A stretch of 64,000 nucleotides of DNA from Limihaloglobus sulfuriphilus (GTDB lineage Bacteria > Planctomycetota > Phycisphaerae > Sedimentisphaerales > Sedimentisphaeraceae), in the NCBI RefSeq assembly GCF_001999965.1, contig NZ_CP019646.1, positions 1,426,001 through 1,490,000 of the forward strand, read 5' to 3'. The notes under the pieces were generated by a model. The model had not been told where the DNA came from. It was given only the letters and a program-made list of their open reading frames with translations, and did not search any database. The position numbers were made by a program, and so were the translations under genes. Positions 13,812-59,943 of this stretch are shown here, one piece after another (the stretch's first letter is position 1; every line of letters begins with the position of its first letter).

Positions 13812-15026
13812 CTAAAAAAGACATTAAAAGTCAAGAGACATAAAGTGGTAAAAGTCGATTATAGTGACAATCAGCTCAACTTTTATTTAGACGTTCACAA
13901 ACGTCGTCGGTTGCCTTGCGGCACCTGTCAGACGCTCGCTCCGCAACGTGACCGGCTTCCGCAACGGCAGATTAAGCATGTTCCGTTATGGGGCATACCA
14001 GTGATGCTGCATTACCGTCCGGTTCGTGTCAGCTGTCCCAAATGCGGTGGGCCGAGGGTTGAGGACATACCCTTTACCTCAGGTAAATCACGTATGACAA
14101 ACGGATTGGTCTGGACCTTGAGCAGTATGGCGAAATTGCTGCCCTGGCAGACGGTTTCTCAGATGTTTAATGTCAGCTGGAATACGGTTCAGTCTGCGGT
14201 AAAGCAGGCAGTTGACTACGGCATGAAACACAGGGATACAGGAAAGGTCATTTATATTGGCATTGACGAAGTATCCCGCCGCAAGGGTCATACGTATATG
14301 ACGGTGGTGTACGACCTGGAAGAAAAACGCATTTTATGGAGCGGCCAGGGCCGGAAAAAAGAGACGCTGGAGGCGTTTTTCAAAGAACATGGAAATTCGT
14401 TAAAAGGCAGTTTAAAGGCGGTTTGCTGCGATATGTGGCAATCGTACATTGATGTTGTAAAAGAGCATGTTGACGAGGATGTTGTTCTGGTTTTCGATAA
14501 ATTTCATATCGTACAACATTTGAATCAGGCTGTCGATGAGGTACGCAAACAGGAAGCTATCACGCTCAAAAAAGACAACCCCGAACTGCTTAAAAAAACG
14601 CGATATATCTGGCTGAAGAATCCTGAAAACCTTACAGACAAACAGCGTGCACGTCTGGGGTATCTGGAGAAGCTGAATCTTAAAGTCAACAGGGCTTATT
14701 TATTGAAAGAATCCTTTCGTGATTTTTGGGATTACCGCTACCCTGCAGCTGCCAAAAAATATCTTGCAAAGTGGTTCTGGTGGGCCACCCACAGCAGGCT
14801 CGAACCATTACGTGATTTTGCCTGGATGCTCAGAAAACATCAGCAAGGTATCATAAATTATTTCAAATGCCGAGTTACCAATGGAGTCACCGAAGGTATG
14901 AACAATAAAGTTAAAACAATAGTCAAAAGATGTTATGGATTCAGGACAATCCCGACGCTGCAGTTAGCCTTATATCACTGCCTTGGAAAGCTGCCTGAAC
15001 CTGAAAATATGCACAAATTTGTGTGA
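13812..15026 (+). pseudogene. ISL3-family transposase (copy B), 5' end interrupted by IS30
   Basis: The original gene starts at ATG 12671 and runs six codons to the IS30 insertion, then resumes at 13812; the rejoined frame encodes 410 residues. Visible parts are the zinc segment (LPCGTCQTL, SCPKCGG), the HTH (QTVSQMFNVSWNTVQ) and the DDE domain (IDEVSRRKGHTY, VCCDMWQSYID, NGVTEGMNNKVKT). The remaining frame could still be read from GTG 13845 (393 residues), losing only the first 17 residues, so partial activity is possible if a promoter in the IS30 end drives it. Confidence 0.88.
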
Positions 15027-15031: not shown

Positions 15032-15355
15032 CTAATAAATAAACAACGGAACATTTTTTTGAAAATCCGTAACCCATAAAGAAGTGTTATGTGGCCAATA
15101 ATTTTCATTAATAAATGTAACCTTTCCTATTGTGCCTGAGCGACCCGTTACGACACCCGGTGCTCTGACTTTATACTCTATATGGTAGTGTTCTACTCCA
15201 TTTGAATAAACGACTGGAAACTCCCCTTTTTGTAATTTAGTGTTTGGTAAATCAAACCCCCTTTGTAAAGGGGCAATATGTTTAATTTCCTTAACATCCC
15301 AATCCTCGGGAATTACTCCCACCTCTGTCTGTTTGTATCCCTTCCTCACTTGCAT
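15032..15355 (-). pseudogene. hsdS: hsdS, 5' part (start of TRD1), separated by an insertion
   Basis: The first 105 native codons of the type I specificity subunit begin MQVRKGYKQTEVGVIPEDWD, nearly the same linker that opens the second TRD, and include the first part of TRD1 (VVTGRSGTIGKV, SLWVTDFQKNVP). The ATG overlaps the stop of hsdM, so the two were translationally coupled. The frame is closed by a TAG made where the 8-bp duplication meets the IS end. The fragment lacks the conserved helices needed to bind HsdM and is unlikely to work alone. Confidence 0.88.
15033..15040. repeat. Target-site duplication, right copy (TAATAAAT)
   Basis: Second copy of the 8-bp duplication made by insertion of the ISL3-family element into hsdS; see 12565-12572. 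Confidence 0.95.
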
Positions 15356-23145: not shown

Positions 23146-23922
23146 CTAAAAGTCTATATTGTCACGGAGCTTGTCGAGGAACTCAACCATCACCTCATAG
23201 TCCCTGCCGCGTATGATGTGGGTCAGGTATGACAGACGCTGGTTGATCTTCTCGATCTGCTCAATCGTGCCGGCATTAAACAGAATCTCGGCCAGCAGAT
23301 AATCATCCTCACTTAAAAGCCCCTTGGCTATCTCATGGTGCCTGCGGAACGTCGTACCAGGGGCGTCCTGCTTTTTCATGCACGCCGCGAAAACCAGCGA
23401 TGACGTAAACGGTATCGAAAGGCTGTAGGATATTGTCTCATCATGCTCTGCGAATGAATATTCATATATATTCAGCTCGAGTGACTCGAAGAATTCACGG
23501 AAAAACTTTTTGCCCTCTTCGTCTGATTCTGTGATGATTACGGCGTTTTCGTCCTTTAGATTTCTGATATTGGCGAATGTCGGGCCGAACATCGGGTGAA
23601 TAGAGACGAAACGCAAATTGTGCTGTTTGTAATACTTGTCTATATCGCCCTTTACTGACATGATATCTACAAATATACAGTCATCGCGAACCAACGGTAT
23701 TATCTGGTCAAATGCTTCTTTTGTATGACGAAGCGAGACGGCATTTATCACCATATCAGGGTCAAACTCTTTTAACTGACTCATATCTGTGAGCCGCTGT
23801 ACCTCGATGAAAAACTTCATCTTTTTACGGTCAAAGTCGTATATAGCGACCTCATGATCAAGACAGAACTCCTCTGTCAGCCATGCTCCCATTCGGCCTG
23901 TTCCGAGTATAAAGATTTTCAT
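23146..23922 (-). CDS. tyrA: Prephenate dehydrogenase
   Basis: This 258-residue NAD(P)-dependent enzyme converts prephenate to 4-hydroxyphenylpyruvate for tyrosine. The Rossmann motif is ILGTGRMGAWL at the start, and the fold continues with FVDIMSVKGDIDKY, VSIHPMFGPTF (the prephenate-binding HPMFGP signature) and a C-terminal helical dimerisation region. It has no fused chorismate mutase and no ACT domain. Its start overlaps the pheA stop by 4 bp (ATGA), making it the last gene of the aromatic supraoperon. Confidence 0.92.
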   Translation of the reverse strand: MKIFILGTGRMGAWLTEEFCLDHEVAIYDFDRKKMKFFIEVQRLTDMSQLKEFDPDMVINAVSLRHTKEAFDQIIPLVRDDCIFVDIMSVKGDIDKYYKQHNLRFVSIHPMFGPTFANIRNLKDENAVIITESDEEGKKFFREFFESLELNIYEYSFAEHDETISYSLSIPFTSSLVFAACMKKQDAPGTTFRRHHEIAKGLLSEDDYLLAEILFNAGTIEQIEKINQRLSYLTHIIRGRDYEVMVEFLDKLRDNIDF

Positions 23923-24974
23923 AATGCCACCTTCTCGTCATAACAGCCCAGGAACCTGTAGTGATGGCAGCTTTGCTCTACCTGCTCAAGTATGCCGGCC
24001 ACCTCGGGGTCGTCGATAGAGCCCTCAAAATCGAGGAAAAACGCAAACTCGCCCGGCGCATCCGGCATTGAATCGATTCTGGTAAGGTTGATATTCTTCT
24101 TTGCAAACAGCTCGAGAACTCCAAAAAGAGCGCCGGCCTTGTCCGGAGTGGCAAAAACTATCGAGCACTTGGAGCCGTGATTTTTGTTAGCGTCTCTGGA
24201 TATAACAACAAAACGTGTCTGGTTCGTATCCAGATCCTCAATCTGCTCCTGTATGATACTCAGGTTATAAAACCTGGAACTTAGCTTGCTTGCGATAGCG
24301 GCTGTCGCGGCGGGCCGCTCTTCTGCGAGGATTCGTGCGGCTCCGGCAGTGTCATAATGCGCCACCGGCTCAAGGTTGTGCCGCTTGAGGTACTCTCTGC
24401 ACTGTGTCAGCGCTTGCGGGTGTGAATACACACGCCGTATTGCCCGGTAATCAGTCCCCGGAACAGCAAGCAGGCAATGATTTATCGCCATCTTGACTGC
24501 GCCGACTATATGCAGGTCAGACTTGATCAGCTGGCCGTTCACCGCGCCGACCATACCCCCGAGAGTGTTCTCCACCGGAACTATACCGTAATCATAGACT
24601 CCCTGTTCTACGCCGCTGAAGACATCGGCGAATTCATGGCAGGGCATGGGTGCGAGTTTGGGATCCCAAACCATACATGCACTTTCGCTGTAAGCCCCGT
24701 GCTCACCCTGAAAAGCGATAACAGGGCCGATTGACTCCTGAATATTTTTACTCTCCTTAAGTATAAGGGAATAAACATCTTTTATAAAATCACTACGCAG
24801 CAAAGCACTCTCGCACTGCGAAAGCACTTCAAGAATCTGCTTTTCCCGCTGTTCGTCAAAGGTCGTTTCCTTGAACGTCATCGCGATACGGGCGCTTTCC
24901 ATACGGTTTTTCAGCAACTGCACAATCTGGCAGTCAAGCTGATCAATTTTCTGTCTGATTTCGTTTAAGTCCAT
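23919..24974 (-). CDS. pheA: Chorismate mutase / prephenate dehydratase (P-protein)
   Basis: Three domains are visible in 351 residues. An AroQ-type chorismate mutase spans about 1-88 (LNEIRQKIDQLDCQIVQLLKNR). A prephenate dehydratase spans about 95-265 (AFQGEHGAYSE, VPVENTLGGMVG, NQTRFVVISRD with the catalytic Thr-Arg-Phe). A C-terminal ACT domain is at about 275-351 (AGALFGVLELFAKKNINLTRIDSMP). It takes chorismate to phenylpyruvate, and the ACT domain should give phenylalanine feedback. It lies between aroC (52 bp gap) and tyrA (4-bp overlap). Confidence 0.95.
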   Translation of the reverse strand: MDLNEIRQKIDQLDCQIVQLLKNRMESARIAMTFKETTFDEQREKQILEVLSQCESALLRSDFIKDVYSLILKESKNIQESIGPVIAFQGEHGAYSESACMVWDPKLAPMPCHEFADVFSGVEQGVYDYGIVPVENTLGGMVGAVNGQLIKSDLHIVGAVKMAINHCLLAVPGTDYRAIRRVYSHPQALTQCREYLKRHNLEPVAHYDTAGAARILAEERPAATAAIASKLSSRFYNLSIIQEQIEDLDTNQTRFVVISRDANKNHGSKCSIVFATPDKAGALFGVLELFAKKNINLTRIDSMPDAPGEFAFFLDFEGSIDDPEVAGILEQVEQSCHHYRFLGCYDEKVAL

Positions 24975-25026: not shown

Positions 25027-26043
25027 TCATTGTTTGTACGAATTATCCTGACCTCTAAACGCCTCTCCGGCTTTTCGGGTTAGTATCATGTCCGCCATGG
25101 TTATCGCGGCGGCAGCCTCTATCACCGGAACAATCCTGACAGCAATACACGCATCATGTCGGCCGTGCACCTCGAGTGTCTCCATGCTGCCGGTCGTAAA
25201 GTTCATGGTGGTCTGGGGCTTTGCTATGCTCGATGCCGGCTTGACAGCAACACGGAAAATTATATCGTTGCCGTTAGTTATGCCGCCGTTGATGCCGCCG
25301 GCATGATTGGAGAGCGTACGGCCCTGCTGGGAACAGAACGGATCATTGTGCTCGCTTCCGAGCATCATTGCGGCATTAAAACCGGTGCCGAATTCAATCC
25401 CACGGGTTGCAGGCACCGCAAAGATAAAATGCGATAGCCTGGCCTCTACCGAGTCGAAGAACGGCTCGCCAACACCTGCCTCTATACCTGTTATAAGGCA
25501 CTCGATGAGCCCGCCCACCGAATCGCCTGAATCCGCTGCCTTGGCGATAGTCTCGTCAATTTCCTCACTGCCGCCAACCTGCACAAGACGCGCAGAGGCT
25601 TTTGCGGGGGCGATAATTTTTTTTGCTACAACGCCGGCCGCGACGATTCCCACTGTCAGCCGGCCGCTGAAATGGCCGCTGCCCCGCATGTCCGCGAAAC
25701 CGCCGTATCGCTTATACGCACTGAAATCGGCATGTCCCGGGCGGGGGATGTCCCGAAGGTTGTCATAATCGCTGCTGCGGGTATTGGTGTTCTCAAATAG
25801 TATTGTTATAGGGCTGCCGGTTGTACAGCCGTTTACAACGCCGCTGACGATATTCGGCGAGTCCGGCTCTCTGCGGGGGGTTGTGCCTTTGCCTCCGCCG
25901 CCCTGCCTGCGGGAGAGATCATGCCGAAAGTCCGCTTCGTCAATCGCAAGCCCCGCAGGGCAGCCGTCAATGCAGACACCAACCTTTTTGCCGTGCGATT
26001 CGCCAAAAATACTTATTCTGAATATTCTGCCAAAACTGTTCAT
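25027..26043 (-). CDS. aroC: Chorismate synthase
   Basis: The 338-residue flavin-dependent enzyme makes chorismate from EPSP. Signature segments are present: FGESHG near the start, RRQGGGGKGTTPRREPD, RPGHADFSAYKRYG, RGSGHFSGRLT, SNHAGGINGGI and GRHDACIAVRIVPVIEAAA. It is slightly shorter than the typical ~360 residues. It lies 67 bp after aroA in the same direction, with both last shikimate steps adjacent. Confidence 0.96.
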   Translation of the reverse strand: MNSFGRIFRISIFGESHGKKVGVCIDGCPAGLAIDEADFRHDLSRRQGGGGKGTTPRREPDSPNIVSGVVNGCTTGSPITILFENTNTRSSDYDNLRDIPRPGHADFSAYKRYGGFADMRGSGHFSGRLTVGIVAAGVVAKKIIAPAKASARLVQVGGSEEIDETIAKAADSGDSVGGLIECLITGIEAGVGEPFFDSVEARLSHFIFAVPATRGIEFGTGFNAAMMLGSEHNDPFCSQQGRTLSNHAGGINGGITNGNDIIFRVAVKPASSIAKPQTTMNFTTGSMETLEVHGRHDACIAVRIVPVIEAAAAITMADMILTRKAGEAFRGQDNSYKQ

Positions 26044-26110
26044 AATCTTTTTTTTCTTGAATTTTATCAGACTGATCTGACCGATCCGACCGATAACTAT
26101 TGCCTGTTGC

Positions 26111-27364
26111 CTAATGCCTAATGCCTATTTTCCCAAACTGCTCAAAAAAGCCCGGCCACGATTTCGCGGCGCATTCGGGATCTTCTATTTCTACCATTTC
26201 ACCTTCAAGCCCGCAAGCATACGCCGCCGCCGCCATTGCAATACGGTGATCCCCGCAGGCATTTATCCTGCCGCCGGTGCCCGTTCCGCCGATGATGTAC
26301 ATGGTATTGTTTTTTAAAGATATTTCCACACCTAAACGGCCGAACTGCTCCTGAAGCACTGCCGCCCTGTCGCTTTCTTTGTGTCGAAGACGGGATACGC
26401 CGGTAATCTCCGATACGCCGTCGCAGTGTGCCGCCAAAGCCGTCAGCGGCGGAAACAGATCCGGGCACTCTGTCGCATCAAAACTGAAGCCCTTAAGCCT
26501 GCCGCGTGATGCGGTTATTTCTCCGGCATCTGCGTCAATATCAATATTTGCACCTGCCGCTTCTATTGCCTGCAATACCGCGATATCGGCCTGTTTGGTA
26601 TCTGTTCGCAGCCCCGCCGCGGTTACCGGCCCGCCAAGAGCACCGGCAGCAAGCACAAACGCCGCGCCGCTCCAGTCGCCCTCAACGGTATAGTCGCGGC
26701 TTTGGTATTTCTGGCCGCCCGGAACGATAAACCGCGTATATCCCTCACGTCCGTATTCGATGCCGAAAGCATCCATCACCTGCAGCGTCATATCAATATA
26801 CGGTTTGCTGGCAAGACTGCTGACATTTATCACCGAGTCGTGCCGGGCCCTTGCACAGGCAATCAGCAGTCCGGAGAGCAGCTGTGAGCTCATTGACGCA
26901 TCTAGTGTTACTTCGCCGCCTTTAAGCGGGCCTTTGACTGTGATGGGCAATAAGCCGTTGTTGGTCGAGACCCGGGCGCCGAGTGCCCGCAGCGGTGATT
27001 CAGCCATTGACATGGGCCTCTTTGTCAGCCCGCCCGAACCGGTCAGCGTAACCTCCGTATCAAGCAGTGCCGCAATCGGCGTGTACATGCGGATACACAG
27101 CCCCGCCTCGCCGCAGCAGAGCTCTCTTGACGGGGCTTTGAGCCCGCCTGTGATCAGAACGCTGTTATTGGCCGGCGTGGAGACTTCCGCACCAAGCGAA
27201 GAGGCTACATCCATTCCAGCCACGCAGTCATCACAGAGAGAGATGTTCCGCAGGCAAGACCGGCCGTCACACAAAAGAGCCGCCGCGACGGCCCGCTGCA
27301 TCATGCTCTTGGACGGCTCAACCATTACGCGGCCTTTTGCCTTAGCTGTTTTTAAGCATATCAT
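26111..27364 (-). CDS. aroA: 3-phosphoshikimate 1-carboxyvinyltransferase (EPSP synthase)
   Basis: This 417-residue enzyme joins shikimate-3-phosphate with PEP. The N-terminal active-site segment reads VMVEPSKSMMQRAVAAALL, where the common PGSKS is EPSKS. The second PEP segment is GEAGLCIRMYTPIAALL instead of GNAGTxMR, and later motifs include EGDWSGAAFVLAAGALG, ECPDLFPPLTALAAHC and DHRIAMAAA. I chose ATG 27364, which lies 23 bp inside the end of aroK and begins the homology; an upstream start would add 12 unrelated residues. The motif variation suggests a divergent subclass. Confidence 0.93.
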   Translation of the reverse strand: MICLKTAKAKGRVMVEPSKSMMQRAVAAALLCDGRSCLRNISLCDDCVAGMDVASSLGAEVSTPANNSVLITGGLKAPSRELCCGEAGLCIRMYTPIAALLDTEVTLTGSGGLTKRPMSMAESPLRALGARVSTNNGLLPITVKGPLKGGEVTLDASMSSQLLSGLLIACARARHDSVINVSSLASKPYIDMTLQVMDAFGIEYGREGYTRFIVPGGQKYQSRDYTVEGDWSGAAFVLAAGALGGPVTAAGLRTDTKQADIAVLQAIEAAGANIDIDADAGEITASRGRLKGFSFDATECPDLFPPLTALAAHCDGVSEITGVSRLRHKESDRAAVLQEQFGRLGVEISLKNNTMYIIGGTGTGGRINACGDHRIAMAAAAYACGLEGEMVEIEDPECAAKSWPGFFEQFGKIGIRH

Positions 27365-27878
27365 ATATTTCCCGGGCTGTTGTCTCAATATCTTTGTCAC
27401 TTCTGTTAATTACAACATCCGCCGCCTGTTTGTACAGAGGTTTGCGTTTCTCATACAGCTCTCTGGCAAAATCAGACGAATCCTCGCGGTCAAGCAGCGG
27501 CCTGCTGCCGCTCTGTACCCTCTCAAGACAAACGTCGATATCCTGTTCGAGCCAGACGACTTCAGCGTGCTTTGCAAGTAATTGCCGGTTACGCTCTGAA
27601 ATAACTATACCGCCGCCGCACGAGAGTATGACACCCCTGCCGCTGGTAAGATAATCCTCCATCAGCGACGATTCAAGCCGGCGAAAATAATCCTCACCGT
27701 GCTCGCGGAAGACAGAGGGAATATCCGTCCCGCTGCGGTCTTCAATGATGCTGTCCAGATCTACCAGCTCGCGGTCGGTCAGCTTTGCCAGCTCAGTACC
27801 AACGGCGGTCTTGCCGACACCCATAAACCCGATAAGGGCAATGGGTCTTTCTGTAATGTTATGTTTTGATTTTTGCAT
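27342..27878 (-). CDS. aroK: Shikimate kinase
   Basis: The 178-residue P-loop kinase has Walker A GFMGVGKTAVG, a DLD shikimate-binding motif (ELVDLDSIIE), FREHGEDYFRRLE, the CGGG loop (LSCGGGIVI) and the lid R-P-L-L (GSRPLLDRE). It phosphorylates shikimate with ATP. It overlaps aroA by 23 bp and follows aroB by 60 bp, so supply steps 2, 5 and 6 of the pathway are co-transcribed. Confidence 0.95.
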   Translation of the reverse strand: MQKSKHNITERPIALIGFMGVGKTAVGTELAKLTDRELVDLDSIIEDRSGTDIPSVFREHGEDYFRRLESSLMEDYLTSGRGVILSCGGGIVISERNRQLLAKHAEVVWLEQDIDVCLERVQSGSRPLLDREDSSDFARELYEKRKPLYKQAADVVINRSDKDIETTAREIYDMLKNS

Positions 27879-27938
27879 AATGTTTTAAAATTATCAGACT
27901 GATCAGTCCGATACGACCGATACTGTTGCCTATATCAC

Positions 27939-28973
27939 TCAAAATTCAAATCCGCGTATTATCTCCTGCAACCTCGCAATCGGGATGGGTTTTATAACAG
28001 CCTTTCCCAAATCCTCGAGCAGGATAAAATCTATCTCCCCGCCGTGGCGCTTTTTGTCGCCCGCTATCGCATCAGCCAGAACTGAGGCTTTTTCATGCAG
28101 TGACACCGGCAGGCCGGCAGTCTCGATTAAGCCTTTCAGCCGTTGATGTTTATCTTCGCAAAGCAGACCCATCTCTACTGAAAGCCTTGATGCGATGCAC
28201 ATACCCACGCTGACCGCCTGGCCGTGGGCAAGTTTACAGACCTTTTCTATAGCATGGGCGAATGTGTGGCCAAAGTTGAGTGTTTTTCTAAGCCCCGACT
28301 CCCGCTCGTCCTGGGCGACAACTTCAGCCTTAATTGAAACAGACTCATAAACCAGAGTCTCAACAGTACTTATATCACGTTTGAGCAGACCTCTCATGTT
28401 ATCTTCGATATTCTCAAAATGCCTGGCGTCTCGTATCGCGCCGTGCTTGATCATCTCCGCAAGCCCGCAGCGATAGTCAGATTCTCTCAGCGTAGCCAGC
28501 GTGGAGACATCGCATACAACAAACCGCGGCTGGCTGAACACGCCGACAATATTTTTATAGCCATGAAAATTTACACCGTTTTTGCCGCCGACTGACGCGT
28601 CAATATTTGCCAGCAGTGTCGTAGAGATAAAGCCAAAATCAATGCCCCGCATATATGTTGACGCGGCGAATCCGGCTGTGTCGCAGACGATACCCCCGCC
28701 AACCGCCAGTATAAACCATGACCGGTCAGCGCCGCACTCGAGCAGCCCCGAATATATCTTTTCAAGCCCGCCAAGTGTCTTATTCTCCTCGCCCGGTACC
28801 GTCGTAATAACCGGACAATCGGGGAATCTCTCCGCGTATATCCCGGCAACGTTTGAATCGGTTATGATAACCGCCGGCTTATCCTCCGGCACAAACCGCG
28901 AGAAATCGCCGCCGAAATCACCGACAAGAACCCGGCTACCACCGCTTTGAGCATGTACAGTCAATTCTTTCAT
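27939..28973 (-). CDS. aroB: 3-dehydroquinate synthase
   Basis: The 344-residue NAD-dependent enzyme cyclises DAHP. The NAD site shows LAVGGGIVCDTAGFAASTYMRG (in two parts) and STTLLANIDASVGGKNGVNF. Metal ligands are expected in GLAEMIKHG (Glu), NFGHTFAHAIE (His) and KLAHGQAVSVGM (His). All are intact. It lies 16 bp after a small nucleotidyltransferase gene that interrupts the otherwise aromatic series. Confidence 0.95.
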   Translation of the reverse strand: MKELTVHAQSGGSRVLVGDFGGDFSRFVPEDKPAVIITDSNVAGIYAERFPDCPVITTVPGEENKTLGGLEKIYSGLLECGADRSWFILAVGGGIVCDTAGFAASTYMRGIDFGFISTTLLANIDASVGGKNGVNFHGYKNIVGVFSQPRFVVCDVSTLATLRESDYRCGLAEMIKHGAIRDARHFENIEDNMRGLLKRDISTVETLVYESVSIKAEVVAQDERESGLRKTLNFGHTFAHAIEKVCKLAHGQAVSVGMCIASRLSVEMGLLCEDKHQRLKGLIETAGLPVSLHEKASVLADAIAGDKKRHGGEIDFILLEDLGKAVIKPIPIARLQEIIRGFEF

Positions 28974-28989
28974 CTATAATTCTTTGCGG

Positions 28990-29259
28990 TCAACCATAAA
29001 TAACAGTCCCTGTGTGTTTTATCAGGCGATTAAACTTTGAATCCTTTTTTAGATCAATAAGATCAACCGGTTTATCAACAGCAAACATTAAATCAGCATA
29101 AAAATTAAAAAAATCTTTATCCGCGACACCTTCTACCGCAAGATCAATGTCGTTTGCCTTAACATTAGGAATTTGCGAGGAACCAAAAAGTAAAACTTTT
29201 TCCACGTGATATTTTTCGCACACTCCCAATATGGCTTGTTTTTCATGATCGCTTATCAT
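28990..29259 (-). CDS. MNT-type minimal nucleotidyltransferase
   Basis: The 89-residue protein is a minimal nucleotidyltransferase domain: helix, then VLLFGSSQIPNVKANDIDLAVEG in two pieces, giving GSS and the DxD pair (DIDLA), then a third Asp in KPVDLIDLKK. Such proteins normally pair with a HEPN protein as an antitoxin that AMPylates or otherwise modifies the toxin. No HEPN partner is present here. It sits inside the aromatic operon between DAHP synthase (28 bp) and aroB (16 bp) and has no link to the pathway. Confidence 0.85.
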   Translation of the reverse strand: MISDHEKQAILGVCEKYHVEKVLLFGSSQIPNVKANDIDLAVEGVADKDFFNFYADLMFAVDKPVDLIDLKKDSKFNRLIKHTGTVIYG

Positions 29260-29287: not shown

Positions 29288-30130
29288 CTACTCCTGTTCC
29301 ACAGCAGCAGGGAGTTTTTTTATCTCTGCCATACATTCGTTTAACTTGTTTATCCTTGCCATCATACGCTTGAACATTGGAATACTCAGTGCCTGGGCTT
29401 TATCGCACATTGCCTCTTCGGGCTTGCAATGCACCTCGACGGTGATCCCGTCCGCGCCGGCAGCGAAGGCCGCCAGACTCATCGGCTCAATCATGGACAA
29501 AAGTCCCGTAGCGTGCGAAGGATCAACGATTATCGGCAGATGCGAGAGCTCGAGAACCGCCTGTACAGCGCTTAAATCAAGCGTGTTGCGTGTGTACGTC
29601 TCGAACGTCCTGATGCCGCGTTCACACAGAATAACGTCCTTGTTGCCCTCTGCGAGTATATACTCGGCGCAGTAGAGCCATTCATTGATTGTTGAGTGCA
29701 TTCCCCGTTTGAGCAGCACCGGCTTGTTCGCCCTGCCGACTTCCTTAAGCAGCGAAAAGTTCTGCATGTTGCGTGTGCCGACCTGCAATATGTCGGCATA
29801 TTCACATACCCAGGAGACATCACGCGGGTCTAAAACCTCGGTCACGACGGGCAGGCCCGTCTCACGTGAAGCTGTTCGGAGAATCTTGAGTCCCTCGAGC
29901 CCGAGCCCCTGGAATGCATACGGCGAAGTACGCGGCTTAAAAGCTCCGCCGCGGAGCATTGTAGCGCCGCCCTCTTTTACGCCGATGGCTGTTTCTACGG
30001 TCTGTTTTTCACTCTCTACACTGCACGGACCGGCTATAACCGTTAAATCCTGCCCGATTTTTGTGCCGCCCACCTCGATGATGGTTTTATGCTCGGGTGA
30101 CTGTTTTTGGCATAATTTTAAATCTTTCAT
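29288..30130 (-). CDS. aroF: 3-deoxy-7-phosphoheptulonate (DAHP) synthase, type I-beta, no regulatory domain
   Basis: This TIM-barrel aldolase joins PEP and erythrose-4-phosphate as the committed step. The barrel shows VIAGPCSVES, MLRGGAFKPRTSPY, LQVGTRNMQN, VLLKRGMHSTINEW, IIVDPSHATG and GITVEVHCKPEEA. It belongs to the KDO8P synthase-like I-beta group. Only ~30 residues precede the barrel, so the N-terminal ferredoxin-like feedback domain of the Thermotoga enzyme is missing, and no chorismate mutase is fused. Allosteric control by aromatic amino acids is therefore unlikely, which shifts control toward transcription. Confidence 0.93.
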   Translation of the reverse strand: MKDLKLCQKQSPEHKTIIEVGGTKIGQDLTVIAGPCSVESEKQTVETAIGVKEGGATMLRGGAFKPRTSPYAFQGLGLEGLKILRTASRETGLPVVTEVLDPRDVSWVCEYADILQVGTRNMQNFSLLKEVGRANKPVLLKRGMHSTINEWLYCAEYILAEGNKDVILCERGIRTFETYTRNTLDLSAVQAVLELSHLPIIVDPSHATGLLSMIEPMSLAAFAAGADGITVEVHCKPEEAMCDKAQALSIPMFKRMMARINKLNECMAEIKKLPAAVEQE

Positions 30131-30236: not shown

Positions 30237-31037
30237 TCAATATCGGTCCAGTGCCCCTCGAAAACCACGCACAAAATCGCCCATGATTTTCGGCAAATCG
30301 GGATTGTCGGGATTTTTCTCGATCACCTTTTCGAATGCGCTGCCAATTACTATCCCGTCAGCATGGCCGGCCATGGCAAAAGCATCCTCAGGCGTGGAGA
30401 TTCCAAAACCAACGCACAGCGGCAAATCTGTCTGCCGGCGGATCCTGTCAACATATCTGCCGACGCCGTCAATATCTATGCCGCCGGTGCCGGTAACTCC
30501 GGTACGTGATATCAGATACAGGAACCCTCTCGAGGCAGTCGAAATCAGCTTCACCCGCTCGTCGTATGTTGTCGGAGCAATAAGGTGAATGACTACAAGC
30601 TCATTGCCGGGCCATTTATCGGTCAGCTCGCCGGCCTCTTCGGGCGGCAAATCAACAATCAGCACGCCGTCAGCGCCCGCCGCGGTAGCATCCTCGTAAA
30701 ACCTTTCTCCGTAAGCTATTATCGGATTGTAATAGCTGAACAGCACCACCGGCACATCCGCGTCATACGAGCGAATATCGCGGACAATATCAAAGCACAC
30801 ACCCATATTGACACCCGCCGCGAGTGCCCGGCTGCTGGAACGCTGGATAACAGGCCCGTCTGCCGTCGGATCGGAGAACGGAACACCAAGCTCCAAAACA
30901 TCAAGCCCGCCGGCGATCATCTCACGAATCAGCTTCTTAGACATCTCAACAGACGGATCGCCTGCCGAGATAAAGCCGACTAAAGCCTTGCGGCCGTTTT
31001 TCTTATATTCTGCAAATCGTTTTTCAATCCTGTTCAT
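30237..31037 (-). CDS. trpA: Tryptophan synthase alpha chain
   Basis: The 266-residue TIM-barrel cleaves indole-3-glycerol phosphate. Catalytic Glu and Asp lie in LELGVPFSDPTADGPVIQ; the active-site loop is LIAPTTYDERV; the phosphate-binding part is CVGFGISTPEDA and GIVIGSAFE. Length matches the family (about 268). It follows trpB by 20 bp, the usual order for assembling the alpha2-beta2 complex. A 106-bp gap to the DAHP synthase gene is one of the wider spaces in the operon. Confidence 0.96.
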   Translation of the reverse strand: MNRIEKRFAEYKKNGRKALVGFISAGDPSVEMSKKLIREMIAGGLDVLELGVPFSDPTADGPVIQRSSSRALAAGVNMGVCFDIVRDIRSYDADVPVVLFSYYNPIIAYGERFYEDATAAGADGVLIVDLPPEEAGELTDKWPGNELVVIHLIAPTTYDERVKLISTASRGFLYLISRTGVTGTGGIDIDGVGRYVDRIRRQTDLPLCVGFGISTPEDAFAMAGHADGIVIGSAFEKVIEKNPDNPDLPKIMGDFVRGFRGALDRY

Positions 31038-31057
31038 AGTAAAATCCGTATATTCTT

Positions 31058-32266
31058 TTATTTTGTGGTTTTTCCAATTATTGCAAGCGCATGCGCCAGG
31101 TCTTTATCTCCGCGGCCCGAAAGGTTTACAAGTATAACCTCGTCTTTGCTCCTGCTGCGGGCCTCTTTGAGAGCTGAGGCCAGAGCGTGTGAGCTTTCAA
31201 GAGCGGGGATAATCCCCTCAAAACGCGAAAGCATTTTGAACGCCTCTATCGCTTCATCATCTGTTACCGGCACATAACGAACGCGTCCAAGCTCTTTTAA
31301 CAGAGAATGTTCGGGCCCTACGCCGGGATAATCTAATCCTGCCGAGACAGAGTATGCGTGTTTTATCTGACCGTCTTCGTCCTGGAGCAGATACGACTTT
31401 GAGCCGTGCAGGACACCGACCGTGCCCTTGCACAGCGGCGCCGCGTGTCTGCCGGTCTCGATACCCTCGCCTGCCGCCTCTACGCCGATCATCTCGACCT
31501 CATCACCGATAAACGGATAGAACAACCCCATCGCGTTGCTGCCGCCGCCGACACAGGCTACGAGCACATCGGGCAGCCTGCCGATAAGCTCTTTGATCTG
31601 CGTGCGTGCTTCGATGCCGATAATCTTCTGAAACTCACGAACCATCACCGGATACGGATGCGGGCCGGCAACCGTGCCGATAACATAAAACGTATCCTCT
31701 ACCGCTTCGACCCAGTACCGCATCGCCTCGTTCATAGCGTCCTTGAGCGTACCGGTACCGCTGGAAACCGGCACAACCGTCGCGCCGAGAAGCCCCATAC
31801 GCTGAACATTGGGCTGCTGCCGCTCGATATCCTCGACACCCATGAACACCTTGCACTCCATACCCATCAGCGCCGCGGTCGTAGCCGTCGCCACACCGTG
31901 CTGGCCGGCGCCGGTCTCGGCGATAACCCGGTTTTTGCCCATGTATTTGGCGAGCAGTGTCTGGCCGACTGTGTTGTTTATCTTGTGTGCGCCGGAATGG
32001 GCTAAGTCCTCACGTTTAAGGTATATCTGAGCGCCGCCGATATGCTCCGAGAGCCTGCCGGCATGATAAACGGGTGTAGGCCGGCCGACATAGTGCTTTA
32101 AAAGAGAGTTAAACTCCGCAAGAAATGACTTGTCGATGATATATTTTTCAAATGCCGCCGCCGCTTCTATCAGTGCGGGCATAAGCGTCTCGCCGACATA
32201 GATGCCGCCGAACTCGCCGAAATGGCCCCGCTGATCAGGGTAGTTGTAGTCAAACATTCCGTTCAT
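31058..32266 (-). CDS. trpB: Tryptophan synthase beta chain
   Basis: This 402-residue PLP enzyme condenses indole with serine. The PLP lysine lies in [13 protein letters not shown]; the phosphate-binding GGGSNAMG, the catalytic Glu region ([13 protein letters not shown]) and the C-terminal SGRGDKD are all present. It is of the trpB1 type, which works with TrpA. ATG overlaps the trpF stop by 4 bp. A second ATG three codons in is possible. Confidence 0.97.
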
Positions 32267-32916
32267 ATTAAAATTCTCCTCAAAGGAACATTTATTTTCA
32301 AATTTTTTGCGCTGTTTATAAATTTTTCAACAAGTTTTATATCTTTTATCCCCGGGCCTATCTCGAGGCTGCTCGAAGCGTCCACGCCGTCCGGCAGTGC
32401 CGCCTCACACGCCCGAGCCAGATTGTCCGGCCCAAGCCCGCCGGCAAGCAGAACCGCCCTTTTGCGGAACCGCTCTGGGATATGATAATTCCAGACCGTA
32501 CCGTTGCCGCCGGGCAATTCGCCTTTTGAGCCTTCGATCAGATAAACATCCGCCGGATAATCAACCAAAGGCAGTGAATCGGGACGGAAAAATTTTATCA
32601 CCTTTATGCCGGCACCCATTATTTCCCGGGCATCTTCGGCAGGTTCATTGCCGTGCAGCTGAACAGCCGCGAGTTTGAGATTCTGTGCGGTTTTTATAAT
32701 CTTCGCCGGTGTCTCATTGACAAACACTCCCACACACGGCACTGGAGCCGCCGCATTAGCAATACGCCTGGCCAGCGATACATCCACATTTCGCGGGCTT
32801 GGCGGATAGAAAACGAGCCCGATCGCATCGGCTCCCGCCGCAGCGGTCAGCTCTGCCTGCCGCGGATGTGTTATGCCGCATATCTTCACAAAAAGTTTGT
32901 CGCTATTTCCTGTCAT
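32263..32916 (-). CDS. trpF: Phosphoribosylanthranilate isomerase
   Basis: The 217-residue TIM barrel starts [18 protein letters not shown]; the catalytic Cys is in KICG and the Asp in the C-terminal GVDASSSLE segment, with the phosphate loop [10 protein letters not shown] use ATG 32916, which overlaps the trpC stop by four bases (ATGA), instead of a longer frame whose first 49 residues overlap trpC. Its end overlaps trpB by 4 bp. trpC and trpF are separate genes here, unlike the fused enterobacterial enzyme. Confidence 0.94.
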
Positions 32917-33713
32917 TTGACTCCCCGCAGTTCTCTTATAAACGCCGCCGGAACAGCCGAGCGGACAATACTCTCGCCGACAAGAAAGCAGTTCACTCCG
33001 CGTTCGAGATAGAAATCTATATCGGTACGTGCAAATATCCCGCTCGCAGCGACGGCAATACAATCGCCAGGCAGCTCTTTAGAAACCTGAGCAGCCACCT
33101 TAATATCTGTGTCGAAAGTCTTCAGGTCGCGGTTGTTTATGCCGACAATTTTAGCGCCGGCATTCAGGGCCTTTTCTGTCTCTGCTGCCTGGTGTACCTC
33201 AACGAGTGAATCCATACCCAGAGATTCTGTAAGCTGGATAAGGTCTTTTAAAAGCGGCCCTTCCAGGACGCGGACTATCAGCAGCAGGGCATTGGCGCCC
33301 ATCATCTTCGACTCGTACACCTGATACTGGTCAAAGATGAAATCCTTTCGTAAAAGCGGTACATCAACCGCGCCGCGGACATCAGCGAAGTCCCTGGCAC
33401 TGCCTTTGAAGAATTCGCTCTCTGTCAGTACCGAAATTGCCGCCGCACCGCCGCGTACGTATGAAAGGGCTGTTTTTTCCGGCTCAAGCTCAGGGCAGAT
33501 ATCACCCTTTGACGGCGATGCACGTTTTATTTCGGCAATAATCCGAACGCTGTCTTTTGCCGCGAGGCAGTCATAAAAACTGCTGCCCACCGCCGGCATT
33601 ACAGATGCCATATCCTTTATTGCTTCCAGAGGCATGACAGCTTTCTGCGTCGCGACCTGTGCCCGGCGAGAGGCCATTATTGTTTCAAGTATGTTTTTTT
33701 CTCTGCTGCTCAA
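32913..33713 (-). CDS. trpC: Indole-3-glycerol phosphate synthase
   Basis: The 266-residue TIM barrel has AEIKRASPSKGDI (catalytic Lys), LLRKDFIFDQYQVYE, VEVHQAAETEKAL, KIVGINNRDLKTF and VAASGIFAR as its phosphate loop. It closes the indole ring of carboxyphenylamino-deoxyribulose phosphate. It follows trpD by 107 bp; that gap contains an interspersed A+T-rich motif (agatttcagatttcaaat) also seen between trpD and trpG. Confidence 0.95.
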   Translation of the reverse strand: MSSREKNILETIMASRRAQVATQKAVMPLEAIKDMASVMPAVGSSFYDCLAAKDSVRIIAEIKRASPSKGDICPELEPEKTALSYVRGGAAAISVLTESEFFKGSARDFADVRGAVDVPLLRKDFIFDQYQVYESKMMGANALLLIVRVLEGPLLKDLIQLTESLGMDSLVEVHQAAETEKALNAGAKIVGINNRDLKTFDTDIKVAAQVSKELPGDCIAVAASGIFARTDIDFYLERGVNCFLVGESIVRSAVPAAFIRELRGVK

Positions 33714-33820
33714 TTTCTAATACCTGTATAAATCACAAATTGCCAGATTTCAGATTTCAAATTATATTTGACAGGATTTCTATTAATCTTGTCTATCTTG
33801 TTAATCCCGTCTATTAACTC

Positions 33821-34834
33821 TTAATTCTCCTGTGTATATCTTATTAACGCATCGAGTTTTGCCGCGGCGTTTCCTGTATCGATGGCTTCTTCTGCTAATT
33901 TAACGCCTTGGCTGATATTCTCTGCCTTGCCGGCGGCGGAGATCGCGGCTGCGGCGTTTATTACAACGACATTTCTCGCCGGGCCCTTTCTGCCGGAGTA
34001 AATATCCTTGATTATTTTAGCGTTTTCCGGTGCCTCTCCGCCTTTCAGGTCATCAAGGTCTGCCGCTTCGCCGAAAAACTGTTCTGGTAGAAGCTCGTAA
34101 GTCTTTACCATTCCATCTTTAAGCTCGCTGATGCGTGTCGCGTCACAAACGCTTATCTCGTCAAGCCCATCATGGCCGTGTACCACCGCGGCACTTCTGC
34201 AGCCGAGCAGTTTGAGTGCCTCGGCGAACATCTCTGTCAACTGCGGCGCGAACACACCGAGCACCTGATAATTTGCGCCGGCAGGGTTGGTCAGCGGCCC
34301 AAGCATATTAAAGATACTCCGTATGCCAAGCTCTTTACGGACGGGCATGGCGTATTTCATCGCGCCGTGAAACTTCGGGGCAAACATAAAGCCGATGCCG
34401 ATCTCGTTTATCGCATCTTCTACCAGCTCCGGTTCCATTTCGAGGTTTACGCCCAGCTCCTCGAGCACATCAGCACTGCCGCATTTGCTGGAAATCGAGC
34501 GGTTGCCGTGCTTTGCGACGGTTATTCCTGCACCGGCAACGACAAACGCCGCCGCTGTCGAGATATTGAACGTGCCCGAAGCGTCTCCGCCGGTACCGCA
34601 GGTATCAACCACTACCGGCGAGATGACCTGGATCCGATGCGCCTTGCTCCGCATGGCACGTGCAGCGCCGGCAAGCTCGGCGAATGTCTCACCCTTGGTG
34701 CTCAGTGAGCTGATCAGGGCGGCGATCATTACCGGCGAGACCTCACCGGAAAGAATCGCCGATAGCATTTCAGCGGATTCTGTCTGGGTAAGGTCAGTTC
34801 TTGATGTTATCTTTTTCAAAAGCTCGTTTATCAT
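33821..34834 (-). CDS. trpD: Anthranilate phosphoribosyltransferase
   Basis: The 337-residue enzyme shows the family motifs VDTCGTGGDASGTFNIST (PRPP loop), VAKHGNRSISSKCGSADVLE, and NMLGPLTNPA with the surrounding RSIF. It transfers phosphoribose to anthranilate. It is not fused to the trpG amidotransferase domain, and both are separate genes in this operon (99 bp apart). Confidence 0.95.
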   Translation of the reverse strand: MINELLKKITSRTDLTQTESAEMLSAILSGEVSPVMIAALISSLSTKGETFAELAGAARAMRSKAHRIQVISPVVVDTCGTGGDASGTFNISTAAAFVVAGAGITVAKHGNRSISSKCGSADVLEELGVNLEMEPELVEDAINEIGIGFMFAPKFHGAMKYAMPVRKELGIRSIFNMLGPLTNPAGANYQVLGVFAPQLTEMFAEALKLLGCRSAAVVHGHDGLDEISVCDATRISELKDGMVKTYELLPEQFFGEAADLDDLKGGEAPENAKIIKDIYSGRKGPARNVVVINAAAAISAAGKAENISQGVKLAEEAIDTGNAAAKLDALIRYTQEN

Positions 34835-34886
34835 TTTTATATGCTCAAATTTAAGATTTAAGATTTCAGATTTCAGATTTCAGATT

Positions 34887-34908
34887 GAGAAAATTCGTGA
34901 ATTTTCTC
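34887..34908. repeat. Interspersed palindrome, copy 1
   Basis: GAGAAAATTC-GT-GAATTTTCTC, a perfect 10-bp inverted repeat, between trpD and trpG. Identical copies lie at 37148-37169 and 42544-42565, each in a gap between minus-strand genes, and each followed by TACA. Confidence 0.85.
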
Positions 34909-34933
34909 TACACTATTGCCTTTTGCCTAATGC

Positions 34934-35509
34934 CTATTGCTTATCTATAATCTTCAAATAGTTTCTCAGTATCTTCATTCCCAGCGGGGTCATTATGGAT
35001 TCAGGGTGAAACTGAATGCCCTCGATGGCAAATTCCTTGTGCCGGATGGCCATAATCTCGCCATCGTCGCTCTGGGCACTGACGGTGAAAACCTCCGGCA
35101 GCGTATCCCGCTCGGCAACAAGCGAATGGTACCGCATGGCCTGAAACGGTTTCTTAAAAGATTCGAAAACTCCCTGGGAGTCTGTAGTTATCTCAGAAGT
35201 CTTGCCGTGCATAATGCGTTTTGCACGGACGATTTTTCCGCCGAACGCCTGGGCAATCGCCTGGTGCCCCAGACATACGCCGAGAATCGCCGCCCTGCCG
35301 GCAAAATGTTTGATAACCTCCAGCGAGATTCCCGCACTGTCGGGATTGCCCGGCCCGGGTGAAATGACAATTCCCTCGGGCGAAAGAGCCTCGATCTCTT
35401 CGATTGTGGTCTGATCGTTGCGTTTTACGACAACCTCGCGTTCGAGCTTTCGCAGATACTGCACAAGGTTATATGTAAACGAATCGTAATTATCCAGCAT
35501 AAATATCAT
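34934..35509 (-). CDS. trpG: Anthranilate synthase component II (glutamine amidotransferase)
   Basis: The 191-residue class I amidotransferase has the oxyanion strand SPGPGNPDSAG, the nucleophile Cys in GVCLGHQAIAQAFGG, and the His-Glu pair in FHPESIMTPLG. It supplies ammonia to TrpE and, in many bacteria, also serves para-aminobenzoate synthesis, which would make it pabA-like too. Its position 28 bp after trpE supports the tryptophan role. Confidence 0.94.
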   Translation of the reverse strand: MIFMLDNYDSFTYNLVQYLRKLEREVVVKRNDQTTIEEIEALSPEGIVISPGPGNPDSAGISLEVIKHFAGRAAILGVCLGHQAIAQAFGGKIVRAKRIMHGKTSEITTDSQGVFESFKKPFQAMRYHSLVAERDTLPEVFTVSAQSDDGEIMAIRHKEFAIEGIQFHPESIMTPLGMKILRNYLKIIDKQ

Positions 35510-35537: not shown

Positions 35538-37022
35538 TTACTGGTTTTTCCTCAAAAGCTCAAGTGCCTTCTGGACGGAGCCGGCCTTGTTCACTGTTTC
35601 TGTATATTCACTTTCCGGCACGGAGTCATACACTATCCCTGCGCCGGCCTGCACGGTGAGTTTTCCGTCTTCAATGCTTGCTGTTCGTATCGTGATGGCG
35701 AAATCCATATTCCCGCTGAAGCAGAAATACCCCACGCCGCCGCCGTAGGGCCCGCGGGGAGTGTCCTCCATTTCGGCGATTATCTCCATCGCCCGCACCT
35801 TGGGAGCGCCGGAGAGGGTGCCTGCGGGGAAGCTGCACCCGAACAGGTCAAAAGAATCGTAACCGTCTTCTATGTCACATGTTACATTTGACACCAGATG
35901 CATCACATGTGAATACCGCTCGACTACCATCAAATCCGTTACCTGCACAGTGCCGGTTTTTGCGACGCGGCCGAGATCATTGCGGCCCAGGTCAACCAGC
36001 ATTATATGCTCAGCCCGCTCTTTTTCATCACGGAGAAGCTCATCAGCCAGCCGCCGGTCTTCCTGTTCGCTGCCTCCGCGCTGGCGTGTGCCGGCGATAG
36101 GCCGCAGGCTCGCCGTGCGGTTCTCAACACGCACCATTGTCTCGGGCGAAGAACCGATAAGCACCGTGCCGCCAAGATGAATAAAGTACATATATGGTGA
36201 TGGATTTATGTAACGCTGTGCCTGATATAAAGATATAACGTCTTTGGGAGCGTCGCTGACAAACGGCTGGGAGATAACGCACTGTATAATTTCGCCCGCT
36301 TTGATTTGCTCTTTTACATATTCAACACGCTCTATAAATGTGTCTTTTTCGACAAGCGGTTTTAAAGTCATATCAGATTTGCCCTGTATCGGTGTGGAGT
36401 ATTTATCCCTGCTCTCAATGGCGCTGAGCGTGTCTTTGAGCCTTTCTTCCGCGAAGTGGTACAGCGTGTCCACATCTTCATTTGCATCTTTGAATGCGAG
36501 TGAAACAACTGTCATCGTCTTGCGGATATTATCGAATATAATAACCGTCTCAGGTATCATAAAGCTCGCCAGCGGCTTATCTTCGGGCAATTTATTGATT
36601 ATCTTCGGCTCAAAAAAACTAACGGCTTCATAGGTAAAATACCCGATAAGCCCGCCCCAGAACCGCGGCAGCTCGGGAATCTGCGCGGGTTTATATCCCT
36701 TCATAATCTCCCGCAGTGTTTCAAGCGGTTTGCCGCCGTGCGGGATGGTCTTCATCCGGCCGTTTTCGTTAATGACGACTGAATCTCGGTAAACCTGCAC
36801 CGTCGCCCTGGCAGAGATACCCAGAAAGCTGTACCGCGACCATCTTTCTCCGCCTTCAACACTCTCAAGCAGACATACAGGCCCCCTGCCGCGGTAAAAC
36901 CGCTTGAGCAGCGATACCGGTGTCTCTGTATCCGCCAGCACCTCAGCACAAACGGGTATCACATTCGCGTTTTCAGCAAGCTCTCTAAATCTATTACATT
37001 CTGGAAACGTCTGTAAAAGCAT
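35538..37022 (-). CDS. trpE: Anthranilate synthase component I
   Basis: The 494-residue enzyme turns chorismate to anthranilate. The N-terminal tryptophan-feedback motif LLESVEGGERWSRYSFLG is intact. The catalytic domain shows TVLIGSSPETMVRVENR, IAGTRQRGG, EHIMLVDLGRNDLG, FPAGTLSGAPKVRAMEII and PRGPYGGGVGYF. ATG 37022 has AGGAA nine bases upstream. It is the first structural gene of a fifteen-gene aromatic operon and follows a leader that looks like an attenuator. Confidence 0.97.
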   Translation of the reverse strand: MLLQTFPECNRFRELAENANVIPVCAEVLADTETPVSLLKRFYRGRGPVCLLESVEGGERWSRYSFLGISARATVQVYRDSVVINENGRMKTIPHGGKPLETLREIMKGYKPAQIPELPRFWGGLIGYFTYEAVSFFEPKIINKLPEDKPLASFMIPETVIIFDNIRKTMTVVSLAFKDANEDVDTLYHFAEERLKDTLSAIESRDKYSTPIQGKSDMTLKPLVEKDTFIERVEYVKEQIKAGEIIQCVISQPFVSDAPKDVISLYQAQRYINPSPYMYFIHLGGTVLIGSSPETMVRVENRTASLRPIAGTRQRGGSEQEDRRLADELLRDEKERAEHIMLVDLGRNDLGRVAKTGTVQVTDLMVVERYSHVMHLVSNVTCDIEDGYDSFDLFGCSFPAGTLSGAPKVRAMEIIAEMEDTPRGPYGGGVGYFCFSGNMDFAITIRTASIEDGKLTVQAGAGIVYDSVPESEYTETVNKAGSVQKALELLRKNQ

Positions 37023-37060
37023 AACTTATGTTCCTGTTTTTTTCTTTATAAGACAGGATT

Positions 37061-37110
37061 ACCCGTCACTTGTTTCACTATATAACCTGTTTTAAAAACA
37101 AGTGACGGGT
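37061..37110. promoter_or_regulatory. Perfect 15-bp inverted repeat just upstream of trpE
   Basis: ACCCGTCACTTGTTT (37061-37075) and AAACAAGTGACGGGT (37096-37110) form a perfect 15-bp stem with a 20-nt loop, 39 bp from the trpE start. No T-run follows on the minus strand, so it is not a standard terminator. It may be an operator, an mRNA-stabilising hairpin or a relic of a small mobile repeat. Confidence 0.5.
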
Positions 37111-37147
37111 TAATCATGTCTATTTTATTTATCTCAAATTTCAATTT

Positions 37148-37169
37148 GAGAAAATTCGTGAATTTTCTC
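37148..37169. repeat. Interspersed palindrome, copy 2
   Basis: Same 22-bp palindrome as at 34887-34908 (GAGAAAATTC-GT-GAATTTTCTC), lying between the attenuator terminators and trpE. Confidence 0.85.
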
Positions 37170-37192
37170 TACATAAGGGTCAATATTCCAAC

Positions 37193-37225
37193 AAAAAAGG
37201 CCGCCAGGTTATCTGCCTGCGGCCT
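37193..37225 (-). terminator. Second intrinsic terminator of the trp leader
   Basis: On the minus strand AGGCCGCAGG pairs with CCTGGCGGCCT (one bulged base), followed by six T. It lies 14 bp beyond the first leader terminator and would catch polymerases that pass it. Confidence 0.85.
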
Positions 37226-37238
37226 CTATCTTTAAAAC

Positions 37239-37274
37239 AAAAAAAAGACCGCAAACCTCAAGGGGCTTACGGCC
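37239..37274 (-). terminator. First intrinsic terminator (attenuator) of the trp leader
   Basis: On the minus strand GGCCGTAAGCC (37264-37274) pairs with GGTTTGCGGTC (37247-37257; three wobble pairs), then eight T. The 5' arm can instead pair with leader bases 37305-37319 (GGGGC with GCCCC, ACGGTT with GGCCGT), which would prevent terminator formation. Confidence 0.8.
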
Positions 37275-37289
37275 TTATGCGTTCAGTAA

Positions 37290-37382
37290 TTAAAACTGCA
37301 ATCCAACCGTTACCGCCCCTGAGCGATACCAATAACGCCAGTTAAAGCCAAAATAAAAGTTGTTTGCAGCAAATTTAATCAT
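37290..37382 (-). CDS. Leader peptide rich in Phe, Tyr and Trp (attenuator of the aromatic operon)
   Basis: A 30-codon frame begins at ATG 37382 (MIKFAANN...) and ends at TAA 37290, 16 bp before the first terminator. Residues 9-20 read FYFGFNWRYWYR; eight of the eleven residues 9-19 are aromatic (3 Phe, 3 Tyr, 2 Trp). An in-frame stop lies seven codons upstream, so this is not the end of a longer frame. No strong Shine-Dalgarno site precedes it. Position between a sigma70-like promoter and tandem terminators, directly ahead of trpE, fits a transcription-attenuation leader in which stalling at Trp, Tyr or Phe codons frees the antiterminator arm at 37305-37319. The alternative, a relic of an outer-membrane barrel end (GLQF terminus), cannot be fully excluded. 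Confidence 0.75.
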   Translation of the reverse strand: MIKFAANNFYFGFNWRYWYRSGAVTVGLQF

Positions 37383-37428
37383 TTGTATTTTCAGTATAAA
37401 TTAAGTTTTAAATTTCTATCTACAGGTT

Positions 37429-37456
37429 ACTATAAACAGAAACCAGTGTAAGTCAA
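37429..37456 (-). promoter_or_regulatory. Sigma70-like promoter for the trp leader
   Basis: On the minus strand TTGACT (37451-37456) and TATAGT (37429-37434) are 16 bp apart. Transcription would start near 37422, giving a ~40-nt untranslated region before the leader peptide. It lies between the preceding gene's stop (37475) and the leader. Confidence 0.65.
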
Positions 37457-42468: not shown

Positions 42469-42543
42469 TTGACTCTCAACTTTGAAAACTATGTCTTTTA
42501 TATTTATCTCGAATCTGAAATTTCAAATCCCAGATTTCAAAAT

Positions 42544-42565
42544 GAGAAAATTCGTGAATTTTCTC
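42544..42565. repeat. Interspersed palindrome, copy 3
   Basis: Third identical copy of GAGAAAATTC-GT-GAATTTTCTC, 18 bp past the end of the permease gene. The flanks (TACACTAG, GCCTCATGCCTAATTC) resemble those of copy 1 (TACACTAT, GCCTAATGCC). Confidence 0.85.
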
Positions 42566-42583
42566 TACACTAGCGCCTCATGC

Positions 42584-59496: not shown

Positions 59497-59670
59497 CCCG
59501 CCGGACTTTCACATAACAAACAGCTTTTACGAAAACTTATTCAGCAGGATTTTGGCATAATGAACTGTTTTCTGTCATAATACTGCTTATTTACCGCAGA
59601 TAATGAATTTCATTTGACAAATCTGATATATGAAATATAAATAAACTCCTGCTCATTACAAAATTTAAAA

Positions 59671-59850
59671 ATATGCCCGTGTCCGTATTCCGGTTAAAAG
59701 GGAATGCAGTGAAAATCTGCAACGGTCGCGCCGCTGTATGCGTCTGGATAACAAGAATAATCCAGAAACAGGCAATATGCCACTGTGACAGCTAATGTCG
59801 CGGGAAGGCGCCTGTTTGCAAACGCAAGTCAGAAGACCTGCACTGGTATA
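59671..59850 (+). ncRNA. Cobalamin riboswitch
   Basis: Conserved aptamer elements are in order: GGTTAAAAGGGAATGCAGTG near 59692-59711, AACGGTCGCGCCGCTGTA, the B12-box GCCACTG at 59779-59785 and the closing CGCAAGTCAGAAGACCTGC (59823-59841). It precedes the secreted-protein operon that begins at 59,992. With a strong terminator before that gene, it should repress transcription when cobalamin is bound. A further set of small stems (GAATT-AGT-AATTC at 59872-59884) lies between aptamer and terminator. Confidence 0.92.
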
Positions 59851-59943
59851 GATCTTTAGCACTGTAAAGCTGAATTAGTAATTCAAGCATGCGCAGTGTG
59901 CAGTTTCCCGCGTAAGGAATAAGAAAGAAATAAGCTGAATATC

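Follow-up and report, generated by a model that had tools for sequence, protein, structure and literature searches.

The window—the whole 64-kb stretch of DNA analysed here—carries on its minus strand a run of 15 co-directional genes, trpEGDCFBA-aroF-x-aroBKAC-pheA-tyrA, whose products cover the common pathway and all three aromatic branches. At the thresholds used, pheA and this class of aroF each occur once in the genome. A small nucleotidyltransferase gene of the Polbeta type lies between aroB and aroF (28990-29259). The features discussed below are listed in the direction of transcription.

37429-37456, minus strand: sigma70-like promoter, TTGACT-16-TATAGT (consensus scan, 10/12 matches)
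37425-37444, no strand assigned: palindrome GGTTTCTGTTTATAGTAACC, candidate TrpR-type operator, overlapping the -10 box
37290-37382, minus strand: leader peptide MIKFAANNFYFGFNWRYWYRSGAVTVGLQF, 30 codons, coordinates including the stop codon (sequence, shuffles, similar leaders in relatives)
37329-37346, minus strand: candidate control codons Phe13 to Trp18, F-N-W-R-Y-W (ribosome-position folding)
37305-37320, minus strand: segment 2, 5' strand of the antiterminator, AGGGGC ... ACGGTT (fold with the A-site at Trp15/Tyr17)
37262-37276, minus strand: segment 3, 5' arm of terminator T1 and partner in the antiterminator (folding)
37245-37257, minus strand: segment 4, 3' arm of T1 and partner of segment 5 (folding)
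37238-37276, minus strand: intrinsic terminator T1 with T-run (hairpin 37276-37245, -18.6 kcal/mol)
37214-37227, minus strand: segment 5, 5' arm of terminator T2, pairing with segment 4 (helix of -20 to -22 kcal/mol)
37193-37226, minus strand: intrinsic terminator T2 with T-run (hairpin 37224-37199, -14.8 kcal/mol)
about 37039-37173 (part: 37109-37173), minus strand: dispersed repeat between T2 and trpE (many partial genome copies)
35538-37022, minus strand: trpE, anthranilate synthase component I, first structural gene (PF00425, PF04715)
30237-35509, minus strand: trpG, trpD, trpC, trpF, trpB, trpA (Pfam)
29288-30130, minus strand: aroF, DAHP synthase, first step of the common pathway (NF006421, TIGR01361 above cut-off)
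25027-29259, minus strand: small nucleotidyltransferase gene, aroB, aroK, aroA, aroC (profile matches)
23146-24974, minus strand: pheA (chorismate mutase/prephenate dehydratase) and tyrA (prephenate dehydrogenase) (profile matches)

Read along the minus strand from 37460 to 37023, the layout is promoter and palindrome, leader ORF, T1, T2, dispersed repeat, and trpE. A preliminary description, made from the letters alone, had named the promoter, the peptide, and both terminators, and all of these stand; however, it placed the terminators directly before trpE, when they lie about 170-220 nt upstream with the repeat in between. The repeat query gave 60 genome matches in all; it also occurs at about 34870-34912 and 42527-42569, and one copy sits between trpG and trpD. 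Elsewhere in the window, judged by eye only, a transposase-like gene (13845-15026) is directly followed by a 107-residue ORF (15032-15355) that resembles the first part of a type I restriction specificity subunit, possibly cut by the insertion, and that adjoins a methylase gene (15346-17739).

Residues 9-19 of the leader peptide include eight aromatics—three Phe, three Tyr, and two Trp. This is the highest aromatic density of any small ORF on either strand of the window, none of the others reaching 8 in 11, and dinucleotide shuffles of the intergenic region reached that density in 5 of 4000 trials. No clear Shine-Dalgarno sequence precedes the leader ATG; we infer that the ORF is translated.

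The promoter shares first place among the sigma70-like matches of a 10-kb scan and sits between the terminators and a co-directional upstream gene (38962-37475). The sole candidate repressor is a TrpR-like protein encoded by the genome (PF01371, 64.3 bits against a cut-off of 27), which falls below the TIGR01321 TrpR equivalog cut-off (51.8 against 67.25 bits) and scores higher on that model than on YerC/YecD (31.3 bits). The motif GTTWCTNNNNAWAGWAAC lies 5' of trpE in ten genomes of the order (G000-G004, G009, G012, G035, G044, G055), adjoins the TrpR-family gene in G012, and is present in L044 too. A TrpR-type repressor site over the -10 box would probably add control of initiation. A wider regulon marked by the other GTTWCT..AGWAAC sites of the genome was considered and rejected; the neighbours of the second site are unrelated genes, and counts across the genome are close to background.

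The Rfam Trp_leader model (RF00513) scored 14.5 bits on the leader against a cut-off of 41, a weak match to trpB (RF04312, 19.8 bits) was below cut-off and set aside, and no T-box riboswitch in the window reached the gathering threshold. The window's only Rfam match at that threshold is a cobalamin riboswitch at 59662-59859 (RF00174, 92 bits).

Ribosome position and the antiterminator

The leader region as a whole is more stable than 200 of 200 shuffles (z = -3.3). We folded the RNA downstream of a ribosome whose A-site was moved codon by codon along the ORF. A ribosome at Trp15 leaves segment 2 free to pair with 11 bases of segment 3 in an antiterminator of -25 kcal/mol, an energy matched by 28 of 2000 shuffled spacers. 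An antiterminator with the 5' arm of T1 had been proposed before; the one found here is larger than described, and in the folds it keeps 11 segment-3 bases with the ribosome at either of the two stall sites then suggested, Trp15 and Tyr17. The number of segment-3 bases held in the antiterminator stays at 11 up to Tyr17, is 10.2 at Trp18 and 8.8 at Tyr19, drops below 6 from Arg20, and is about 0 from Ala23. In silico, then, the antiterminator is freed only by a stall at or before the control codons, with a drop-off after Trp18/Tyr19.

When segment 4 is present, equilibrium terminator pairing is 0.43 at Phe13, 0.20 at Asn14, 0.12 at Trp15, 0.02 at Arg16, and 0.74 at Tyr17, and it is 0.95-0.98 at Phe9-Phe11 and from Trp18 onward. 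By this measure Phe, Tyr, and Trp each have at least one codon in the effective zone, while Phe9-Phe11, the first three aromatic codons of the cluster, are probably weaker. The preliminary description also held that a ribosome at the stop codon would cover the pairing arm; this is half right, in that the ACGGTT half is masked but the GGGGC half is already behind the ribosome. When untranslated RNA is folded only as far as the start of segment 4, the antiterminator prevails; without translation the switch may therefore not be off, which differs from E. coli.

The same scan was applied to 49 leaders, comprising the window, E. coli trpL, trp leaders of the order and of Desulfobacterota, and the leader of an aroF gene in genome G035. 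The first Trp codon precedes the drop-off in all 49, at a median distance of 5 codons; this checks consistency and is no stringent test, since the scoring accepts every stall ahead of the drop-off as permissive. The scan does tell cases apart: the Trp codons of G012 are permissive, whereas its later Phe/Tyr codons fall outside the zone, as do the late aromatics of L051.

Two terminators and a predicted relay

A second terminator is a problem for simple attenuation, since a transcript that reads through T1 would be lost at T2. Pairing between the two hairpins answers it: segment 4 (GGTTTGCGGTCTT) pairs with segment 5 (AGAGGCCGCAGG) over 12-13 bases, and at -20 to -22 kcal/mol this helix is 5-7 kcal/mol stronger than T2. 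The pairing was equalled in 0 of 3000 shuffles of spacer plus segment 5, and among 146 hairpin 5' arms in the window one pairs as well as segment 5—probably T2's own. In the predicted folds, a ribosome at Trp15 leaves helices 2:3 and 4:5 and no terminator, and a ribosome at the stop codon leaves T1 and T2; the two sets are mutually exclusive (-50.8 for 2:3 + 4:5 against -37.7 for 3:4 + 5:6). The preliminary description had treated the two terminators as independent; structure prediction adds a helix that links them.

These folds suggest the following scheme. Transcription would start some 40 nt ahead of the leader ORF. With too little charged tRNA for Phe, Trp, or Tyr, the first ribosome would stall around codons 13-18, so that segment 2 pairs with segment 3 and T1 (3:4) is blocked; the freed segment 4 would then pair with segment 5, T2 (5:6) would be blocked, and polymerase would enter trpE...tyrA. 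If all three amino acids are plentiful, the ribosome would reach the stop codon, segment 2 would be unavailable, and T1 and then T2 would terminate.

The enterobacterial his attenuator is a six-segment chain, A-F, of mutually exclusive helices. The leader studied here resembles it in that pairing shifts one arm along the RNA, and two mutually exclusive sets of neighbouring helices, as in a his-type attenuator, are found in the window. In his the last hairpin alone is a terminator, whereas here two hairpins of the chain are.

Among 18 sampled relatives, 14 have tandem terminators with 4:5 complementarity, nearly all of them Desulfobacterales. The trp leaders of that group (L032-L051) share with the window a related TrpE (about 60-66% identity) and, for the most part, tandem terminators with complementary neighbouring arms, noted at L032-L049 and L051; they differ in having WWW/WWWW leaders, trp-only operons, and a T2 that is usually stronger than helix 4:5. 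Own-species 4:5 arms pair better than species-swapped ones (P ~1e-4 for all, 0.006 for a reduced set without the window); the swap control on 3:6, arms not expected to pair, also gave P = 0.02, and common descent or base composition may therefore account for part of the 4:5 signal.

The two terminators could instead act independently, or be partly leaky with T2 as a backup, their complementarity being a by-product of T2 having been copied from T1. The 5' arms of T1 (AAGGCCGTAAGCC) and T2 (AGAGGCCGCAGG) are indeed alike, and both the greater stability of T2 over helix 4:5 in most Desulfobacterales and the 3:6 control also speak for this view. In the window, however, the balance between 4:5 and T2 is reversed and the predicted end states are clean opposites, and a T2 acting alone would defeat attenuation by stopping the transcripts that escape T1. 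We regard independent terminators as a possibility to be kept in view, at roughly one chance in three. Taken together, the shuffles, the tandem arms of relatives, and the swap tests with their control make the relay likely in the window, where it may operate in vivo, and a lead elsewhere.

Leaders in relatives and the amino acids probably sensed

Upstream regions of related trpE genes show Trp attenuators to be common in the order, which the preliminary description had not noted. Of the other trpE genes sampled there, most have a WW/WWW leader and a terminator, and a TrpR-like operator often accompanies them. Trp-run leaders with terminators were seen at most native trpE upstream regions of the order (L007-L030, L139, L140, and L268-L307), and in one family of the order the leader start codon lies inside a TrpR-like palindrome. 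Looked at alongside Desulfovibrio-type joint aro-trp operons, L077 and L078 have Trp-run leaders; at L076, an operon of that type, the contig ends inside the operon. At class level outside the order, such leaders are mostly absent from trpE loci.

Trp-only operons mostly have Trp-only or Trp-dominated leaders, and the nearest TrpE of other types, from Desulfobacterota at up to 66% identity, belong to trp-only operons with WWW leaders. The match between leader and gene content is imperfect, since in G002/G004 a trp-only operon stands behind a mixed leader (AYNSFYWCW). In G035 a multi-aromatic leader, MKTFASTTYYSNYMWRFYYSHNIRDFARVNGG (YYSNYMWRFYY; L150, G035:C118), lies some 200 nt ahead of aroF, a DAHP synthase gene that stands alone, with a near-operator and a terminator, AGACCGTGAGC...GCTTGCGGTCT, with a T-run. 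A rule by which leader codons name what the controlled enzyme helps to make holds in G035 and fails in G002/G004. A further candidate, MLWRYWRFY ahead of aroF in G012, lacks a GC-rich terminator and hence was not counted as an attenuator, and no convincing multi-aromatic leader was found 5' of stand-alone pheA genes.

A TrpE tree places the window's sequence with one from Kiritimatiellota, beside Desulfobacterota, the key forks having moderate support only. Vertical inheritance of the operon within the order is not supported; the window TrpE stands apart from those of G002/G004/G012/G035, again with moderate support.

That the region is a ribosome-mediated transcription attenuator we consider very probable. 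The preliminary description went further and proposed a single attenuator sensing all three aromatic amino acids for a joint operon. The attenuation part holds up on the 15 co-directional genes and the folds; triple sensing is likely, and calls for more caution given that many trp-only leaders of the order also have Phe/Tyr codons ahead of their Trp run. Our main reading, an attenuator of this kind serving the single operon that makes all three amino acids, has a probability of about two in three.

The leader might function simply as a Trp attenuator, with stalls at Trp15/Trp18 alone mattering and the Phe/Tyr codons as passengers. Trp leaders prevail in the order, the one candidate repressor resembles TrpR, and of the 46 trp leaders sampled there 27 have Phe or Tyr next to the Trp run; across all 46, which are not independent, Phe/Tyr make up 43 of 230 residues directly before the first Trp and 11 of 251 further upstream. 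A precedent is AroR of C. glutamicum, a Phe-Tyr-Phe leader before aroF that, according to PMC11802643 (citing Neshat et al. 2014), responds to Phe and not to Tyr, so leader codons alone do not prove sensing. Against this, the window has six Phe/Tyr codons and two non-adjacent Trp codons where relatives mostly keep WW/WWW runs, Phe13 and Tyr17 fall inside the permissive zone, the operon yields all three products, and the DAHP synthase gene of G035 has another mixed leader. We think a Trp-only function unlikely, and sensing of all three the better account.

Far less probable is an untranslated ORF in a region that holds just a repressed promoter and the upstream gene's constitutive terminators: that gene is co-directional and a clear Shine-Dalgarno is missing, but the promoter lies between it and the terminators, the order of leader, terminator, and control window recurs at most sampled trpE of the order and Desulfobacterales, and eight aromatics in 11 codons are rare by chance.

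Attenuators of trp operons are as such already known. Like E. coli trpL (RF00513), the window has a short ORF of regulatory codons, overlapping antiterminator and terminator, trpE as the first gene, and a repressor-type operator at the promoter; it differs in using Phe and Tyr codons besides Trp, in its two terminators, and in a much longer operon. Multivalent leaders, in which the codons of one peptide cover several end products, are known from ilvGMEDA and thrABC; these use branched-chain or Thr/Ile codons and one terminator. AroR too mixes aromatic codons of more than one kind and stands ahead of an operon that includes a DAHP synthase gene; it differs in controlling aroF and not a joint trp-phe-tyr operon, with no Trp codons reported (PMC11802643). 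In Actinobacteria, a comparative study detected no RNA elements ahead of the operons for Phe or Tyr (PMC1262725). Searches of the open-licence literature found no description of trp leaders in planctomycetes, the phylum to which the window's gene content and relatives point, in agreement with the preliminary description's statement about the phylum, nor of an attenuator reading three aromatics through two chained terminators.

A broader reading joins these threads: one leader would sense Phe, Tyr, and Trp and switch a two-terminator relay, the relay being old and common to Desulfobacterota trp operons, and the leader having been adjusted as the trp, aro, phe, and tyr genes came together. We put this forward tentatively, at somewhat under even odds. 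The leaders of the order suggest that attenuation combined with a TrpR-like operator is a common form of trp control there, one for which searches of the open-licence literature found no description. If the proposed sensing is true, one RNA switch would read all three end products of a branched pathway, and a simple rule would link the codons of a leader to the set of products. Tandem terminators with complementary neighbouring arms suggest a general trick, by which one ribosome event may control two terminators.
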